Source: Chitinophaga pinensis
GTDB lineage: Bacteria; Bacteroidota; Bacteroidia; UKL13-3
Length of the DNA stretch: 64,000 bases
Assembly (NCBI GenBank): GCA_945860865.1
Contig: CAMARW010000003.1
Location: 185,177-249,176 of the forward strand
Direction: 5' to 3'
Position numbers and translations under genes: made by a program. Shown here piece after piece: positions 56,142-64,000 of the stretch. The notes beneath the pieces were generated by a model. That model worked only from the letters and a program-made list of their open reading frames with translations. It searched no databases and was not told where the DNA came from. Within the stretch, counting starts at the first letter, position 1. Each line of letters starts with the position of its first letter.

Positions 56142-57071
56142 TTGAAATTATCACAAGAAAAATACGCATTATTGATAAAAGCCGAGGCATTGCGCCTCGG
56201 CTTTACAGCTTGTGGCATATCTAAAGCGGCCTTTTTAGAAGAGGAAGCTCCCCGGTTAAGTGCTTGGCTTAAGGAGAATAAGCAAGGGAAAATGGCGTAC
56301 TTAGAAAACCATTTTGACATGCGTTTAAATCCGCAACTCCTGGTTCCAGGCGCCAAATCAGTAATAAGTTTATTGTATAATTACCATAACCCAACAGAAG
56401 TTTTTGGTTCGAACCAATTAAAAATCTCTCAATATGCCTACGGAGAAGATTACCACAAAGTGGTTAAAGATAAACTGTTTGAACTTTTTCAGTTTATTGA
56501 AACGCACATTGGAGCAGTTAATGGTAGGTTTTTTGTTGATTCTGCTCCGGTTTTAGAAAAAGCTTGGGCACAAAAAAGTGGCTTAGGTTGGCTAGGCAAA
56601 AATGGCAATATCATTCATAAAAAAGCAGGTAGTTACTTCTTTTTAAGTGAATTAATTCTAGATTTAGAACTAGCCAATGATGGTCCTGTTACTGACCATT
56701 GCGGCACGTGCACTGCCTGCATAGATGCTTGTCCAACGCAGGCTATTTATAAGCCGCAACAAGTTGATGGAAGCAGATGCATCAGCTATTTAACCATTGA
56801 GTTAAAAGAAGCCATTCCCACCGAATTTAAAACAAAAACCGAAAACTGGATTTTTGGTTGTGATATATGTATGGATGTTTGTCCGTGGAATAGATTTGCC
56901 AAAAAGCACCAAGAGCCTCGTTTTGAACCGAATGAAGCTTTAGTTGAGATGCAAAAGGAAGATTGGAAAGAGATAACAGAGGAGATTTTTAATAAATTGT
57001 TTAAAAATTCTCCAGTTCAAAGAACAAAATACAACGGATTAAAGAGAAACATTGACTTTATTTTAAAATAA
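56142..57071 (+). CDS. queG: Epoxyqueuosine reductase QueG
   Basis: The 309-residue cobalamin- and iron-sulfur-dependent enzyme performs the last step of queuosine synthesis in tRNA. It shows a DUF1730 domain with catalytic Asp ([14 protein letters not shown]133) and GLGWLGKN. Two 4Fe-4S cluster sets follow ([12 protein letters not shown] at 187-198; C213; [11 protein letters not shown] at 240-250). The HEAT-like tail of longer QueG proteins is short. The start is TTG at 56142; no ATG precedes the conserved sequence. It carries a GGTTCGAACC copy. Confidence 0.94.
56406..56415. repeat. GGTTCGAACC palindrome, copy 6
   Basis: Exact palindrome in queG, read as GGT TCG AAC (Gly-Ser-Asn, codon phase 1), extended by TTTTT and CAATTA flanks. 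Confidence 0.7.
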
Positions 57072-57075
57072 TAAT

Positions 57076-58296
57076 ATGAAAAGACTAATTTTCATTTGGA
57101 TACTTGTATCACCTTTAAACCTTTTATCTCAAAGGTTGTATGAGCCCAATTTTGGTATGGTATTGAGTGGTAATTTTAGTACCTCACATTTTAACAGTGA
57201 AAATTATGTAGGAAGAGGAATGGGCAGTATTGCAGCCTATTTTCAAAATCCCATTACGCCTTACAGTATTAACCGATATTTAAATAGGCTAGATTATACC
57301 GTAGAAGCTGGATTATCTTGGCTTGGATTTAGAGATGCAAGCTCTGATAAGCGTTTTCAGGCCAATTATATAGATTTATCTTTATATTTAAATTACGTTC
57401 CAGATAAAATGAGTGATGATTTGCGCCTATTTATTGGGTTCAGACCCTCCTATTTAAACTTTACACAGAGTAGTGTTTTAAATTTTGGGGTATATAGAGA
57501 TCTATTGGCAGATACACAAAATGTAAATGAGATTGGCAGATTAGATTATTCAGGTGTAATTGGTGTATCGTTAAATATGGGCGAAGTTGCCAGTTTTGAG
57601 TTAAGGTATGTGCATAGTTTTACAAACAATACCGATGCCAATGCCTTTAATGGCAGACCTAGTGCATTTGAGGTGGGCTTAAGATTAAGCGCCATTAGGT
57701 TGAGAGATAAACTAGTTAAAGAGGAAAAAAGTTTAGTAGGCGATTTAAATAAAAAAGCTGCTGGAACCCTATTAATAATGTTAGAAGAACCCGATGAAAA
57801 ACTGATTGCCGAGTTGGTTAGAGAGCAAAAAGTACAGGATGCTGATTTTGTTAGAAACCTGCAGTACCAAACCAACTTAAATATAATAGAGTCGTTTAGG
57901 AGTGAGTTTGATTTCTGTAGAGTATTGTTTTTTATGAATACCAATGCGCATAAAGTTGGTATGGGTAAATTTGAAGGCGTGTTTGTAGACGATAAATTAA
58001 AACCTAAAACTAATGTAGATTTTGACACCAATAATTATTTTATAGGGTCTTTTATAGAAGATGTTTCAGATTACACCAACAAGCCGGATTATGGCCTGTA
58101 TTTGTATGATAAAAACTTTAATCAATTACCAAAGCCTTTCAATACAAATGCCAATGCCATGGGAATATTTGTGGGCGGAGATCCTTTTAATTATTTTAGG
58201 CGAGTGAAAACCTCTGGATATTTTCCAGGTGATTTTAGGAAGGTAATTAAGAAAGTAAATGGCAAGTTGCAGATGGGGAGAATACCGATGAATTAA
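57076..58296 (+). CDS. Outer-membrane beta-barrel protein with unknown C-terminal domain
   Basis: The 406-residue protein has a signal peptide (LIFIWILVSPLNLLSQ). Residues about 20-210 alternate as in a small PorT/OmpA-like barrel (YTVEAGLSWLGFRDA, YIDLSLYLNYVP, FELRYVHSFTNN, FEVGLRLSAI). Residues about 235-406 form a separate soluble domain (AAGTLLIMLEEPDEKLIAEL, DFCRVLFFMNTNAHKVGMG, GIFVGGDPFNYFRRV) that I do not recognise. It starts 4 bases after queG and may share its transcript. Function unknown. Confidence 0.65.
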   Translation: MKRLIFIWILVSPLNLLSQRLYEPNFGMVLSGNFSTSHFNSENYVGRGMGSIAAYFQNPITPYSINRYLNRLDYTVEAGLSWLGFRDASSDKRFQANYIDLSLYLNYVPDKMSDDLRLFIGFRPSYLNFTQSSVLNFGVYRDLLADTQNVNEIGRLDYSGVIGVSLNMGEVASFELRYVHSFTNNTDANAFNGRPSAFEVGLRLSAIRLRDKLVKEEKSLVGDLNKKAAGTLLIMLEEPDEKLIAELVREQKVQDADFVRNLQYQTNLNIIESFRSEFDFCRVLFFMNTNAHKVGMGKFEGVFVDDKLKPKTNVDFDTNNYFIGSFIEDVSDYTNKPDYGLYLYDKNFNQLPKPFNTNANAMGIFVGGDPFNYFRRVKTSGYFPGDFRKVIKKVNGKLQMGRIPMN

Positions 58297-58300
58297 TTAT

Positions 58301-58381
58301 GAGTTAAGAATTAAGAGCTAAGAAAAAACTGTTTAATTCTTAATTCTTAACTCTTAATTCTTAATTCTTAACTCTTAATAG
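58301..58381. repeat. Period-7 repeat array A, mirror-arranged, between the barrel gene and dnaN
   Basis: Units on the plus strand: GAGTTAA, GAATTAA, GAGCTAA, GAAAAAA, then CTGT and seven units TTAATTC, TTAATTC, TTAACTC, TTAATTC, TTAATTC, TTAACTC, TTAATAG. The last three-unit block is a perfect 21-base tandem copy (58333-58353 and 58354-58374). The left and right halves are complementary (17 pairs), so the array can fold as a terminator-like hairpin for both convergent genes. The dnaN stop (58375-58377) lies in the last unit. Confidence 0.85.
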
Positions 58382-59496
58382 CTATTAAGCATCATTGGCA
58401 TGATGAGCATAAGAATATCTTCATCTGCTTCTTGGTTAGTTGGAACAATTACACCTGCACGGTTTGGTTGAGATAATTCGAGGGTTATTTGTGCGGCATC
58501 CATGGTACTAAGCATTTCAAGGAAATACTTAGAATTAAATCCAATTTCCATGTCTTCACCTACAAATGAGCAGGTTAATTTTTCTTGAGATTCATTTTCA
58601 AAATCAATATCTTCAGCACTGATTGTAAGTTCGCTTCCCGCCATTTTAAGGCGAATTTGATGTGTAGATTTATTAGAGGTGATGGCCACACGTTTAACAG
58701 CCATTAAAAATTCTCCTCTATCTATACTTAGCTGATTAGGATTTTCTGTTGGAATTACCGCGCGGTAATCTGGGTATTTCTCATCAATTAAACGACAAAT
58801 CAAATTTACATCACCCATTTGAAAATGAGCGTTTTGGTGATTAAAGAAAATCTTAACCTTTGTATCATCGTTGGGCAAGCAAGACTTTAACAAATTGAGT
58901 GCTTTTTTAGGCAAAATTAAAGACTCTTCAATACCTGGTTGCACATCGGTTCGGGTGTAACGCACCAAACGGTTAGCATCTGTAGCAACAAATGTGATAT
59001 TGTTTTTAAAAAGCTGCAAGTAAACGCCTGTTAGGTTCAGCCTTAATTCATCTGTACTTGTAGAAAAAATGGTTTTGTTGATGGCTTTTTGCAAAATTTT
59101 TGCGCCAATTTCAAAGCTATTTGATTCTTCTAAAACTGGGGTTTTAGGGAACTCATCTCCTCTTTGAGCCGTAAGTTTAAACCTACCACTTTCGTATTTT
59201 ATTTCTACCGAACCTTTTTCTTCATTGATGGAAAAAGCCAATGGCTGATCCGACAATGTTTTAAGCAATTCTAGAGTTGTTTTAGACGGAATAGCAATAG
59301 AAACATCTTCTTTGGCATCTACCTTTATACTGGTATTCATGGTAGTTTCCAAATCAGATGAATGTATGGTTAACAAACCATCTTTAATATCAAATAAGAA
59401 ATTATTTAAAATTGGAATAATTGGTTTGGAAACCACAACACCATCAATAAAAGAAAGATGACGAAGCAATACACTGCTGTTAACTATAAACTTCAT
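58375..59496 (-). CDS. dnaN: DNA polymerase III beta subunit (sliding clamp)
   Basis: The 373-residue protein folds as three clamp domains and dimerises into the ring that tethers polymerase III to DNA. Typical segments are IPILNNFLFDIKDGLLTIHS, VSIAIPSKTTLELLKTL, GRFKLTAQRGDEFP, ATDANRLVRY and the C-terminal MLIMPMML near the hydrophobic pocket that binds clamp-interacting proteins. The gene is not next to dnaA here. Its stop codon is the edge of the period-7 array A. Confidence 0.96.
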   Translation of the reverse strand: MKFIVNSSVLLRHLSFIDGVVVSKPIIPILNNFLFDIKDGLLTIHSSDLETTMNTSIKVDAKEDVSIAIPSKTTLELLKTLSDQPLAFSINEEKGSVEIKYESGRFKLTAQRGDEFPKTPVLEESNSFEIGAKILQKAINKTIFSTSTDELRLNLTGVYLQLFKNNITFVATDANRLVRYTRTDVQPGIEESLILPKKALNLLKSCLPNDDTKVKIFFNHQNAHFQMGDVNLICRLIDEKYPDYRAVIPTENPNQLSIDRGEFLMAVKRVAITSNKSTHQIRLKMAGSELTISAEDIDFENESQEKLTCSFVGEDMEIGFNSKYFLEMLSTMDAAQITLELSQPNRAGVIVPTNQEADEDILMLIMPMMLNSY

Positions 59497-59648
59497 GGTT
59501 ATACTATTTTTTTTATTTTGAGTTAGAACTAGATGTTTAATAAACTAAAAATATTCTAACTTATATCTAAACAAAAATAAAGGGCAGCAATTGAGAAGCA
59601 AAATCAAGTTATACACAAAAATCTACCTAAAATTCTTAAAAAAGTGGA

Positions 59649-60632
59649 TTAGTGTTCTTGCCTACCCATCATTTTATCTGGTAATATGCCCGGAAAAACC
59701 TCTACTTCTGAAGTATCCTGTATGTTTCTTTGCGTAAAATCCAAGTTGGGCTGACCACCATTAACCCATGCGGTATACCAAAAGGAGGCAATACAAATAA
59801 TGGCTGCGCGCATTCTGCGTTCTACCATGCCATTTAAATATTGATGATACTGTTGTGAAAACGCCTTGCTATATACTTTTTGCAGCTGATTTCCTTTGGC
59901 TTCGTAGGTATATTTTTCATTTTCTGGAAACTGTTCTTGCAATTTTTTCTCGAAAAAAAACACTGAATCAAGCGCTGAAAAACTTCCTTCAATGGCTTCC
60001 CAAGTTTTTACCAGGGGCTGATCTACATATTGAGCCGAACCTACAAAAAAGTCGTATTCTGTGGCAAAAAGTTCGGGTAAACGCGTTTCTAAAAATCCGT
60101 GTATACCATGCTGGTTGGTTAATTGTCCGTTATAATTAGTAGTAACATGCAAAGGCACATGTGCATCGCCAATATAATGCCCGAGTTCTGCCGCACATTT
60201 TAAAATTTTCTGAACATTATTGGTAGCAAAGGCATCGGTTAAAGATTTGAGCATCCATTGTATGTTCCAGGGTACAATGCCATAGGCATGCAAGGTATCT
60301 TTGCTATATTTTTCAACGGCCTTGGCATAACTTCTGGGTAGTGTATCAAAAGGCAAAGCACGCTCATAATAATCCATATCTATAAAATGTTTCTCACCTT
60401 CTCCGCTTACTAAATACCTTCTTTTATCAGGGTCTACGGCATGCTCGGTAATAAAATCAATGTGCTTTTTAAAAAAGCCAAACATCTCAGGTGGCATGCA
60501 AAAAACGGCCAATCTATTTATTTTCTGATGGGCGTAAAAACCCCAAGCTTTTACCTGATGGTTTGGGGTTAAACAAATAAAAAATAAAAATAATAAGAGC
60601 GATTTTGGGAATTGAATTCTATAAAATTTCAT
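59649..60632 (-). CDS. Secreted zinc-dependent phospholipase C / S1-P1 nuclease-like protein
   Basis: The 327-residue protein has a signal peptide ending ...HQVKA, so the mature protein begins WGFYAHQKINR. In this superfamily the N-terminal Trp itself ligates one zinc, and AH is another ligand. The core motif GHYIGDAHVPLHVTTNYNG and HGIHGFLETRLPEL supply further ligands. ITEHAVDPDKRR carries the conserved Asp. It hydrolyses phosphodiester bonds of either lipids or single-stranded nucleic acid; the Bacteroidota group is usually labelled zinc-dependent phospholipase C. Confidence 0.82.
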   Translation of the reverse strand: MKFYRIQFPKSLLLFLFFICLTPNHQVKAWGFYAHQKINRLAVFCMPPEMFGFFKKHIDFITEHAVDPDKRRYLVSGEGEKHFIDMDYYERALPFDTLPRSYAKAVEKYSKDTLHAYGIVPWNIQWMLKSLTDAFATNNVQKILKCAAELGHYIGDAHVPLHVTTNYNGQLTNQHGIHGFLETRLPELFATEYDFFVGSAQYVDQPLVKTWEAIEGSFSALDSVFFFEKKLQEQFPENEKYTYEAKGNQLQKVYSKAFSQQYHQYLNGMVERRMRAAIICIASFWYTAWVNGGQPNLDFTQRNIQDTSEVEVFPGILPDKMMGRQEH

Positions 60633-60709
60633 GGCAGGGCAAAGATTGTTTTCTTAAAATAATTTAACAAGCTGCCCATGCCAAATAAATCAGACAAACC
60701 TGATTTATT

Positions 60710-62041
60710 TTAGCTTGCTTCTTCCATTCTTATTTTACGGCCTTTTAATTTTTCGGTTTGAACCAATTGCAATACTTGTTTAAATTTATTGGCTTTGATG
60801 GCGGCGTAAGCTGTATGGTCTAGCACTTCTATTTTACCCAATTCTTCTTTAGTAAGCTTGGCCTTTTGAAGCAACATGCCTACGATATCCATTTTATTGA
60901 TTTTATCTTTTTTACCTGCCTTAATAAACAAGGTTTTCCATTGCGGTGGTGTGGGCAATTGAAAGCTTTCTGGGAGCTGAATTTCTTTGGGTTTACTTTC
61001 TAAGAAATCGGGTAAATGATCATTTTCATCTAGCAAAAAATACACCAATCCACTTGCTTCCATTCTGGCGGTTCTTCCATTTCTATGAATCATAGCATCT
61101 TCCTTGATGGGTAATTGATAATGGATAACAACATCAATTTCTGGAATATCTAAACCGCGCGAGGCCAAATCGGTTGAAATAAGTAATTGTATGGTTTTAT
61201 TGCGCAGTTTTATCAAAGTTTTTTCGCGGTCTATTTGCTCTAAACCACCGTGGTAATAACCATGTATAATATTGTGTTTTGCAAGTTGCTCACTAATTCT
61301 ATTTACGGCATCTCTATGGTTACAAAAAACGATGGCAGATTTATCTTCAAGCGTGCCAATTAGTAGCATAAGTGCTTCTAGTTTATCATCACCTAAAACG
61401 CGCACTTGCCTTAATAGCATGCTGTTTATTGGCTGCTGCTTTCCTTTAGTATAATCTATGGTTTGTGCCTGGTTTAGGCGCACAAAACCTGGAATTTTGG
61501 GAATGGCAGTAGCAGAGGTTAAGACTCTTTTTTCTAGCTTAGGCATTTGTTTTAAAATGTATTCCATTTCATCTTGAAAGCCTGCTTCAAGCGATTTATC
61601 AAACTCATCTAACACCAAGTATTTGCATGTATTTACCTGCATGTTCTCATTCCTAATATGATAGGCAATTCTACCCGGTGTGCCCACCAATACAGCCGGC
61701 AACTCAGATAAATTATTTTTTTCAATCCTAACTGAATGTCCGCCATAGCAGCAATTAATTTTAAAAGCAGTGCCCATTTGTTTAAACACTTGTTCTATTT
61801 GCAAGGCTAGTTCGCGGGTAGGAACGATAATCATAGCCAGCATTTTTCTTTCGTTTATACTGCTTGCTTCTTCGTTTAGTTGAAGCACCAAGGGAAGCAA
61901 ATACGCGAGGGTTTTTCCTGAACCAGTTGGAGAAATTAACTGTATATCGTGCAATTTGGTAAAAGCCTCTAAAGCTTCTTCTTGCATAGGATTTAGCGCT
62001 GTGATATTAAAATTTTGGAGAATATTTTGGAGGGCTGACAT
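60710..62041 (-). CDS. DEAD-box-type RNA helicase with DEFD motif II
   Basis: The 443-residue protein has the helicase motifs Q (FNITALNPMQEEAL), I (PTGSGKT), Ia (PTRELALQ), Ib (TPGR), II as VLDEFDKSLEAGF (DEFD in place of DEAD), III (TSAT), IV-V (VFCNHRD, STDLASRGLDIP) and VI (HRNGRTAR). A small C-terminal domain (about 370-443, KMDIVGMLLQKAKLTKEELG) resembles the RNA-binding RRM of DbpA. It is probably involved in ribosome assembly or RNA remodelling. Confidence 0.88.
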   Translation of the reverse strand: MSALQNILQNFNITALNPMQEEALEAFTKLHDIQLISPTGSGKTLAYLLPLVLQLNEEASSINERKMLAMIIVPTRELALQIEQVFKQMGTAFKINCCYGGHSVRIEKNNLSELPAVLVGTPGRIAYHIRNENMQVNTCKYLVLDEFDKSLEAGFQDEMEYILKQMPKLEKRVLTSATAIPKIPGFVRLNQAQTIDYTKGKQQPINSMLLRQVRVLGDDKLEALMLLIGTLEDKSAIVFCNHRDAVNRISEQLAKHNIIHGYYHGGLEQIDREKTLIKLRNKTIQLLISTDLASRGLDIPEIDVVIHYQLPIKEDAMIHRNGRTARMEASGLVYFLLDENDHLPDFLESKPKEIQLPESFQLPTPPQWKTLFIKAGKKDKINKMDIVGMLLQKAKLTKEELGKIEVLDHTAYAAIKANKFKQVLQLVQTEKLKGRKIRMEEAS

Positions 62042-62081
62042 AGTTTTGTTGCTTTGAGAAAAGATGCAAGATACGGGGAAA

Positions 62082-62218
62082 AAATTCGAAATTTTAAATT
62101 CGAAATTCGAAAAGAGGATTTAAAACTTGATTTTCCATTACATGCTCCCTAAATGTCGAACATCGAATGCTGAATGTCGAATTTCGAAGTAATAAAAACT
62201 ATAGACTATAGACTACTC
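62082..62218. repeat. Period-7 repeat array B: three stacked heptamer families
   Basis: Block 1 (62082-62116): AAATTCG, AAATTTT, AAATTCG, AAATTCG, AAAAGAG. Block 2 (62152-62186): AATGTCG, AACATCG, AATGCTG, AATGTCG, AATTTCG, exactly 70 bases after block 1 and thus in the same 7-base phase. Block 3 (62198-62218): ACTATAG, ACTATAG, ACTACTC; its last unit contains the ftsB stop (62213-62215). No gene is present in this 171-base gap. Confidence 0.8.
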
Positions 62219-62512
62219 CTCAATCATCACAAAAACATCCTCATTGTCTGCTTTCATGAGGTATTTTTCGCGGGCAAATTTTTCTAAGTTTTTGGGATTG
62301 CCAAATAATTCTTCTTTTTCGTTTCTAACTTTGGCTAATTCACTTTTATAATAGACTTGTTTTGCTTTTAAATCTTTTAAATTTTTGCTGTACTCCATTT
62401 GATCAAAAACACTGTTGCGTTCATTAAATAAAAGCAAAAGAACAAAACCTACCCCTGCCAAGAAATACTTGTTTCTAAGTCGGTTCAGCCAGATAAGTTT
62501 TGTTCTTTTCAT
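62213..62512 (-). CDS. ftsB: FtsB/DivIC-type cell-division protein
   Basis: The 99-residue protein has one N-terminal membrane segment (YFLAGVGFVLLLLF). It then has a periplasmic coiled coil (YSKNLKDLKAKQVYYKSELA, KVRNEKEELFGNP) and the family end motif LEKFAREKYLMKADNEDVFV. It belongs to the FtsQ-FtsB-FtsL subcomplex that activates septal wall synthesis. It starts 5 bases after eno, and the order carA, eno, ftsB on the minus strand suggests one transcript. Confidence 0.9.
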   Translation of the reverse strand: MKRTKLIWLNRLRNKYFLAGVGFVLLLLFNERNSVFDQMEYSKNLKDLKAKQVYYKSELAKVRNEKEELFGNPKNLEKFAREKYLMKADNEDVFVMIEE

Positions 62513-62517
62513 GCGAA

Positions 62518-63813
<1,296 letters not shown>

Positions 63814-63819
63814 TTAGCT

Positions 63820-63889
63820 TTAGTCGTTAGTCTTTGGTCTTTACTCGTTGGTTTTTGGCCTTTGGTTTTCGGATTTAGTATTTCGAAAT
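63820..63889. repeat. Period-7 repeat array C between eno and carA
   Basis: Units: TTAGTCG, TTAGTCT, TTGGTCT, TTACTCG, TTGGTTT, TTGGCCT, TTGGTTT, TCGGATT, TAGTATT, TCGAAAT. The consensus TTRGTYT decays towards the carA stop at 63889-63891. It fills almost the whole 81-base gap in which the eno leader should lie. Confidence 0.75.
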
Positions 63890-64000
63890 TATCTTTTCAT
63901 CATATTTACAAAATCATCAAAAAGGTACCTGCTATCTTCAGGACCGGGTGCGGCTTCTGGGTGGTATTGAACCGAGAATGCTTTTTTGTCTTTTATTCTA
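63889..64000 (-). CDS. carA: Carbamoyl-phosphate synthase small subunit, C-terminal end (5' truncated by the window)
   Basis: The 37 visible codons end ...DDFVNMMKR, after [25 protein letters not shown] contains the His and Glu of the class I glutamine amidotransferase triad, and the PGPEDS context is that of CarA rather than other GATases. CarA supplies ammonia to CarB for arginine and pyrimidine synthesis. The gene runs off the right edge of the window; the catalytic Cys is outside. Confidence 0.88.

Follow-up and report, generated by a model that had tools for sequence, protein, structure and literature searches.

The stretch of DNA analysed here (the window, 64,000 nt of Chitinophaga pinensis contig CAMARW010000003.1) contains three blocks of short tandem repeats between an ftsB/divIC-like gene and a DEAD-box helicase gene (Table 1). 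Orthologues of the ftsB-like gene are present in 41 of the 41 genomes searched. The three blocks are referred to together as array B. Block 1 belongs to a family with a TTCGAA core, of which it is the 3′ arm when read in the sense direction (minus strand). The ftsB stop codon (62213-62215, minus strand) is where block 3 starts, and its sense strand reads TAGTCTATAGTCTATAGT followed by a T-run, also given as TAGTCTATAGTCTATAG and then T5. The units of block 3 are palindromic CTATAG and, together with the T5, would be terminator-like, resembling a small terminator.

Table 1. Genes and repeat features of the window
Feature	Position	Strand	Description
DEAD-box helicase gene	60710..62041	-	443-aa ORF, 3′ of the arrays; named by sequence recognition
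ftsB-helicase gap	62042..62212		171 nt
Block 1, tandem AAATTCG	62082..62112	.	TRF 4.4 copies, 83% matches; lag-7 score 14
Block 2, degenerate tandem AATGTCG	62152..62192	.	TRF 5.3 copies, 70% matches
Block 3, ACTATAG	62194..62215	-	TRF 2.6 copies, 100% matches
ftsB/divIC-like gene	62213..62512	-	99-aa ORF, 5′ of the arrays; named by sequence recognition
Enolase gene	62518..63807	-	
Degenerate period-7 array	63818..63883		TTAGTCG, TTGGTCT, TTGGTTT
Array A	58297..58374 (hairpin 58295-58379)		GAGTTAA/GAATTAA hairpin; TRF score 94, fold -30.7 kcal/mol

Repeat families of array B

The summed lag-7 score of the ftsB gap is 31.5, and 2000 dinucleotide shuffles gave at most 12; at every other lag from 3 to 13, nothing exceeded the threshold. 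An earlier note on this DNA had described a period of 7, which is confirmed, and TRF recovered the three blocks at the positions given there, as 62082-62112, 62152-62188 and 62198-62215. The note had also counted three heptamer families, but we find only two. A gap-free alignment of block 1 to block 2 in reverse complement extends over 29 nt (score 15, shuffle p = 0.002), compared with a score of 13 (p = 0.021) in direct orientation, and the palindromic core TTCGAA is common to both. To judge from these alignments, blocks 1 and 2 are one TTCGAA family in opposite orientations, and block 3 is unrelated. A common origin in a single repeat was accordingly ruled out for block 3 and accepted for blocks 1 and 2. 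The inverted arms, overlooked in the earlier note, are the main feature. The spacing of exactly ten periods between blocks 1 and 2 is real (62082 to 62152, 70 nt) but carries little weight, since the inverted reading suits block 2 better, and two blocks would share a phase by chance one time in seven in any case.

Array A represents the class most clearly in the window: it is a near-perfect hairpin that fills the convergent gap after dnaN, with two inverted arms and a stable fold. The gap of array B, despite the inverted match of blocks 1 and 2, folds no better than its shuffles (z = -0.37), and on this basis a strong hairpin was rejected; array B is a worn example of the genome-wide class of period-7 arrays. 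A consensus Rho-independent terminator (GC stem and T-run) was found neither in 62042-62212 nor in 58297-58374, and no Rfam family exceeded its gathering threshold in 57000-64000. Sub-threshold miRNA-type Rfam matches at 58288-58376 reflect only the long hairpin. The 24-mer of block 2 occurs at three places in 1.23 Mb, which indicates a mostly local sequence and rules out block 2 as one widely dispersed element. The degenerate period-7 array at 63818-63883, detected by TRF and as lag-7 segments, immediately precedes the enolase gene; most arrays, by contrast, are not found 5′ of genes.

The relative G006, whose FtsB is 89% identical, carries the same blocks in the same order in its ftsB gap. 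A longer CATAGTC array with T8 follows the ftsB stop codon where the window has block 3, a TTTCGAATTTCG block is also kept, and a near-identical block-2 stretch, with a few substitutions, is present twice through a ~81-nt tandem duplication. The gap is without arrays in G005 (28 nt) and G014 (78 nt), and G001 has other DNA after ftsB; the array was therefore gained or kept in only part of the genus.

Period-7 arrays in the genome and beyond

Arrays were counted over 1.23 of the 2.59 Mb of the window's genome (contig 1, contig 3 and a portion of contig 2), with genes called by a longest-ORF rule and gap borders therefore approximate; parts of four relatives were covered as well. Intergenic DNA held 70 lag-7 arrays, 33 of them with a score of at least 18, and lags that are not multiples of 7 gave 0-4. 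Coding DNA held 22 lag-7 segments, although the intergenic part is only ~7% of the sequence (~89 kb). The excess in other intergenic regions, on which the earlier note had staked its proposal, is thus present. Perfect intergenic heptamer doublets fall into 39 unit classes, and 36 of the 98 perfect heptamer tandems are of AATTACG; the units are not arbitrary, and a few of them, AATTACG above all, recur at many sites. The units are AT-rich, and the arrays listed for the main families contain no GGG tract. One region of the same genome (C1 ~742000-754500) is unusually dense in period-7 arrays, several of which lie within predicted reading frames (TAACTCAT and related units).

A lag-7 excess was also observed in G014 (14 arrays, against 0-2 at other lags) and G013 (11 against 0-1). 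The 24 kb of intergenic DNA covered in G003, a congener, contains a single array. Across dnaN-region loci of Cytophagales-type genera, among them Pontibacter, Hymenobacter and Adhaeribacter, lag 7 leads with 41, lag 8 follows with 25 and most other lags give 0-4. Length 7 is therefore not unique, with 8 second in these loci. The period-8 arrays (for example CACAAACC, TCACTCAA, AGTTAGAA) form a second class at L092, L114, L142, L147, L156, L165, L168 and others, strong in Pontibacter and its relatives and nearly absent from the window's genome. An AATTACG triplet was found in 9 of 395 Bacteroidota genomes (reversed control, 0) and in 40 stretches of a viral collection (reversed control, 3), which argues that this unit is preferred beyond the genus. 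A 21-nt CTATGGA pattern, looked for across the phylum, was found in one genome and its reversed control in several, which makes the pattern uninformative. The genomes are assemblies, many of them metagenome bins; the recurrence of the same arrays in the same gaps of independent assemblies argues against an artefact.

The arrays have both properties of heptanucleotide SSRs, namely tandem 7-nt units beyond chance and a location mainly outside genes. Cyanobacterial STRR are likewise 7-nt tandem units in non-coding DNA, with a few fixed unit families. It is these fixed families that set STRR apart from the arrays described here, a comparison made from description rather than from sequence. Calothrix heptanucleotides are among those cited in PMC4692102. 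In many bacteria, no class of long repeats is commoner than heptamers, and polymerase slippage has been suggested as their source (Mrazek et al. 2007, as cited in PMC4679880 and PMC4692102). The present arrays resemble those repeats in the favoured 7-nt unit, the mainly intergenic location and the proposed slippage; in the form in which that study is cited, which concerns perfect and near-perfect arrays in general, they differ in their inverted arms and concerted unit change.

TAACTGA repeats and mixed heptamers have been described in Beggiatoaceae, cyanobacteria and Bacteroidetes, with Bacteroidetes gaps that hold several different heptamers and close relatives with shorter gaps that lack them (MacGregor 2015, PMC4679880). 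Intergenic heptamer arrays, several heptamers in one gap and array-free close relatives are all found here too. The unit, however, is not TAACTGA, of which no perfect doublet was seen among the 39 intergenic classes, and the bias is towards 3′ ends, stop codons and convergent gaps, in contrast to the start-codon bias in that study. The BOGUAY genome yielded a single inverted repeat in that study (MacGregor 2015, PMC4679880).

Inverted arms and unit turnover in orthologous gaps

Many gaps of the window's genome hold an array, a loop and then the reverse-complement array. Among 27 pairs of arrays in the same gap, 16 are inverted complements, compared with a mean of 3.4 and a maximum of 8 when arrays were shuffled among sites. 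Convergent gaps carry 2.44 arrays per kb, co-directional gaps 0.85 and 0.56, and divergent gaps 0.28, an approximately ninefold difference between convergent and divergent gaps (p ~1e-9). In co-directional gaps, 21 arrays lie at most 15 nt from a stop codon against 14.3 expected, which is suggestive only. In the AATTACG family the order of the arms is fixed, with AATTACG before CGTAATT in 14 of 14 cases in the window's genome and 6 of 6 in relatives. This polarity is not accounted for by folding, as arms in the opposite order would fold equally well. A separate, dispersed palindrome lies within the loop of certain heptamer hairpins, as in the L093 dnaN gap and at C1 ~245340-245430 of the window's genome; it is bounded by GCTGTCCGG...CCGGACAGC or by ATTGTCCGG...CCCGGACAGC and encloses a TTCGCTCCACTGCGTTACGCTCAG stretch.

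Arrays near stop codons and convergent inverted pairs are also known for the GGGAATC heptamers of Xanthomonas, which have 70-75 such pairs per genome and a stop-codon bias, and whose quadruplex-forming repeats are places where transcripts start or stop more often (Rehm et al. 2015, PMC4692102). Those repeats are a single G-rich quadruplex family, whereas the families found here are many, AT-rich and replace one another.

Comparison of orthologous gaps brought out this replacement. The hairpin 3′ of dnaN is built of GAATTAAG-type units in the window and of GAATTATG units in L092, with the loop AAACAGTTTT common to both, and of AATTACG units in L093; at this position seven more distant congeners (L095-L098, L100, L101, L119) have a canonical terminator of A-run, GC stem and T-run, and others have nothing. 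The folB gap carries AATTACG hairpins in the window's genome, G014, G001 (with one arm expanded by whole units) and G006, a GTGTTAA/TTAACAC hairpin in G005, and canonical terminators in G002 and G013. Between clpC and rlmH, the unit is AATTACG in the window's genome and G014 and AATTATG in G006, G001 has an 8-mer hairpin, and G013 and G003 have canonical terminators. The gap 3′ of a DUF2147-type gene (named by recognition) holds hairpins of ~70 nt in the window's genome, G014 and G006, and measures 0, 2 and 16 nt in G005, G002 and G008, respectively.

By pairing energy, the 5′ and 3′ arms of one species bind each other strongly, and most combinations of arms from species with unlike units are weak, which indicates that both arms change together. 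The G005 folB arms pair at -30.5 with each other and at -3.6 to -13.1 across species, and the G001 rlmH arms at -47.6 compared with about -9 to -17. The AATTATG 5′ arms depart from this pattern: with arms of other species they reach -23 to -27, probably through G-U pairs. The replacement of one unit by an unlike one at orthologous sites suggests that length 7 is favoured over any single sequence. The proposal in the earlier note of a process that selects length 7 is borne out in this respect, and by the lag-7 excess and the many unrelated units; as a whole its reading is partly supported, length 7 being not unique and the units not arbitrary.

Relatives without an array hold a terminator in three of the five testable gaps and none in the other two. 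The hairpins resemble bidirectional Rho-independent terminators in being palindromic, in lying between convergent genes and in occupying the same gaps as terminators of congeners, and differ from them in the long AT-rich stem of 7-nt units, mostly without a T-run directly after it. Within the window's genome, canonical terminators were found in 6 of 18 array-bearing convergent gaps and 28 of 54 others (p = 0.28), so that mutual exclusion of arrays and canonical terminators is a trend only.

Proposed origin and retention of the hairpins

We hold with about even confidence that duplication of 7 nt builds the arrays, and that hairpin-forming arrays at the 3′ ends of genes are retained as terminator-like elements. 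The data show the period of 7, the inverted arms, the joint change of units, the bias to 3′ ends and the presence of hairpins at sites where relatives have terminators; slippage, templating between arms and a role in termination or 3′-end protection are inferred from them. Duplication in a 7-nt, less often 8-nt, register, for example by polymerase slippage, would create and lengthen arrays in non-coding DNA. Most simply, one arm would then template the other, as in quasi-palindrome template switching, so that the arms would stay complementary as the unit changes, and units would spread along each arm. Hairpins at gene 3′ ends, chiefly between convergent genes, would be retained because they would work as bidirectional intrinsic terminators or as stems protecting 3′ ends, in place of the usual GC stem with T-run. 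Array B would then comprise the decayed inverted arms of one TTCGAA family (blocks 1 and 2) and a terminator-like block 3 with T5. The expansion of one arm at G001 folB and the duplication in the G006 ftsB gap fit slippage, and the conserved block order of the latter counts for this explanation. Counting against it are the fold of array B, the lack of a consensus terminator in its gap, the non-significant terminator trend, the two of five gaps without terminators, the shortage of T-runs and the repression by ribosomes of terminators very near stop codons, as described in E. coli (PMC4824070). Slippage alone leaves the recurrence of a few units, chiefly AATTACG, and the fixed arm order unaccounted for.

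The same slippage in 7-nt steps and template switching might yield arrays and palindromes as a neutral by-product, purged from genes and promoters and surviving without function at 3′ ends. This is possible rather than probable, and stands close behind the explanation above. It would suit the range within one genus, from ~70 arrays in 89 kb of intergenic DNA in the window's genome to one in 24 kb in G003, as well as the coming and going of arrays at orthologous gaps such as that of the DUF2147-type gene, the lack of significant exclusion of canonical terminators from array-bearing gaps and the weak structure of array B; it is harder to reconcile with arm complementarity that persists through unit changes, and with the finding that, in three of five testable gaps, hairpins stand at the site of a terminator in congeners. 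Carriage of heptamers between sites by mobile palindromic elements, REP- or MITE-like and served by a RAYT-type transposase, appears improbable. The same units do recur at many sites, hairpins appear as ~70-nt insertions, some contain the dispersed palindromes, and the genome has two matches to Y1_Tnp (PF01797, RAYT-type; C9:83844-84188 and C8:32105-32347). Yet REP/RAYT elements have a fixed palindrome, whereas unit, copy number, arm length and loop vary here from site to site without common boundaries, unlike units at one orthologous site would require repeated insertion there, and the block-2 24-mer is confined to its three places in 1.23 Mb.

A protein that reads 7-nt spacing in DNA or RNA, with selection maintaining spacing rather than letters, had been suggested in the earlier note; we found no evidence for one and consider it very improbable. 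Constant spacing with variable sequence, the fixed polarity of AATTACG arms and the position of some arrays just 5′ of start codons would agree with such a reader. CspB-type proteins, discussed in PMC4679880, bind with one molecule to each heptamer. Wholesale unit replacement at orthologous sites, an 8-mer hairpin in place of 7-mers in G001 and a congener almost free of arrays all argue against it.

Returning to duplication with retention of hairpins, a bolder version, which we offer tentatively and think rather unlikely to hold, is that ordinary terminators have been partly replaced by self-renewing hairpins, in which a 7-nt copying process largely indifferent to sequence writes one unit of a small vocabulary into both arms at once. 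The preference for heptamers, their stacking in one gap and their inverted pairs are already published. The turnover of units inside conserved hairpins appears to be new: in the part of the literature covered, we found no description of two-arm unit turnover in a conserved hairpin or of its alternation with terminators between congeners, and the literature search yielded no paper on AATTACG tandems.

The dominance of 7-nt units among longer bacterial tandem repeats has been a question since at least 2007. The genus offers a natural series for comparing orthologous gaps, its species ranging from rich in arrays through poor to nearly free of them. As the unit can change in both arms while the hairpin is retained, ideas of slippage, template switching and termination become directly testable. 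If the hairpins are indeed self-renewing, the sequence of a terminator would turn over freely while its structure stays.
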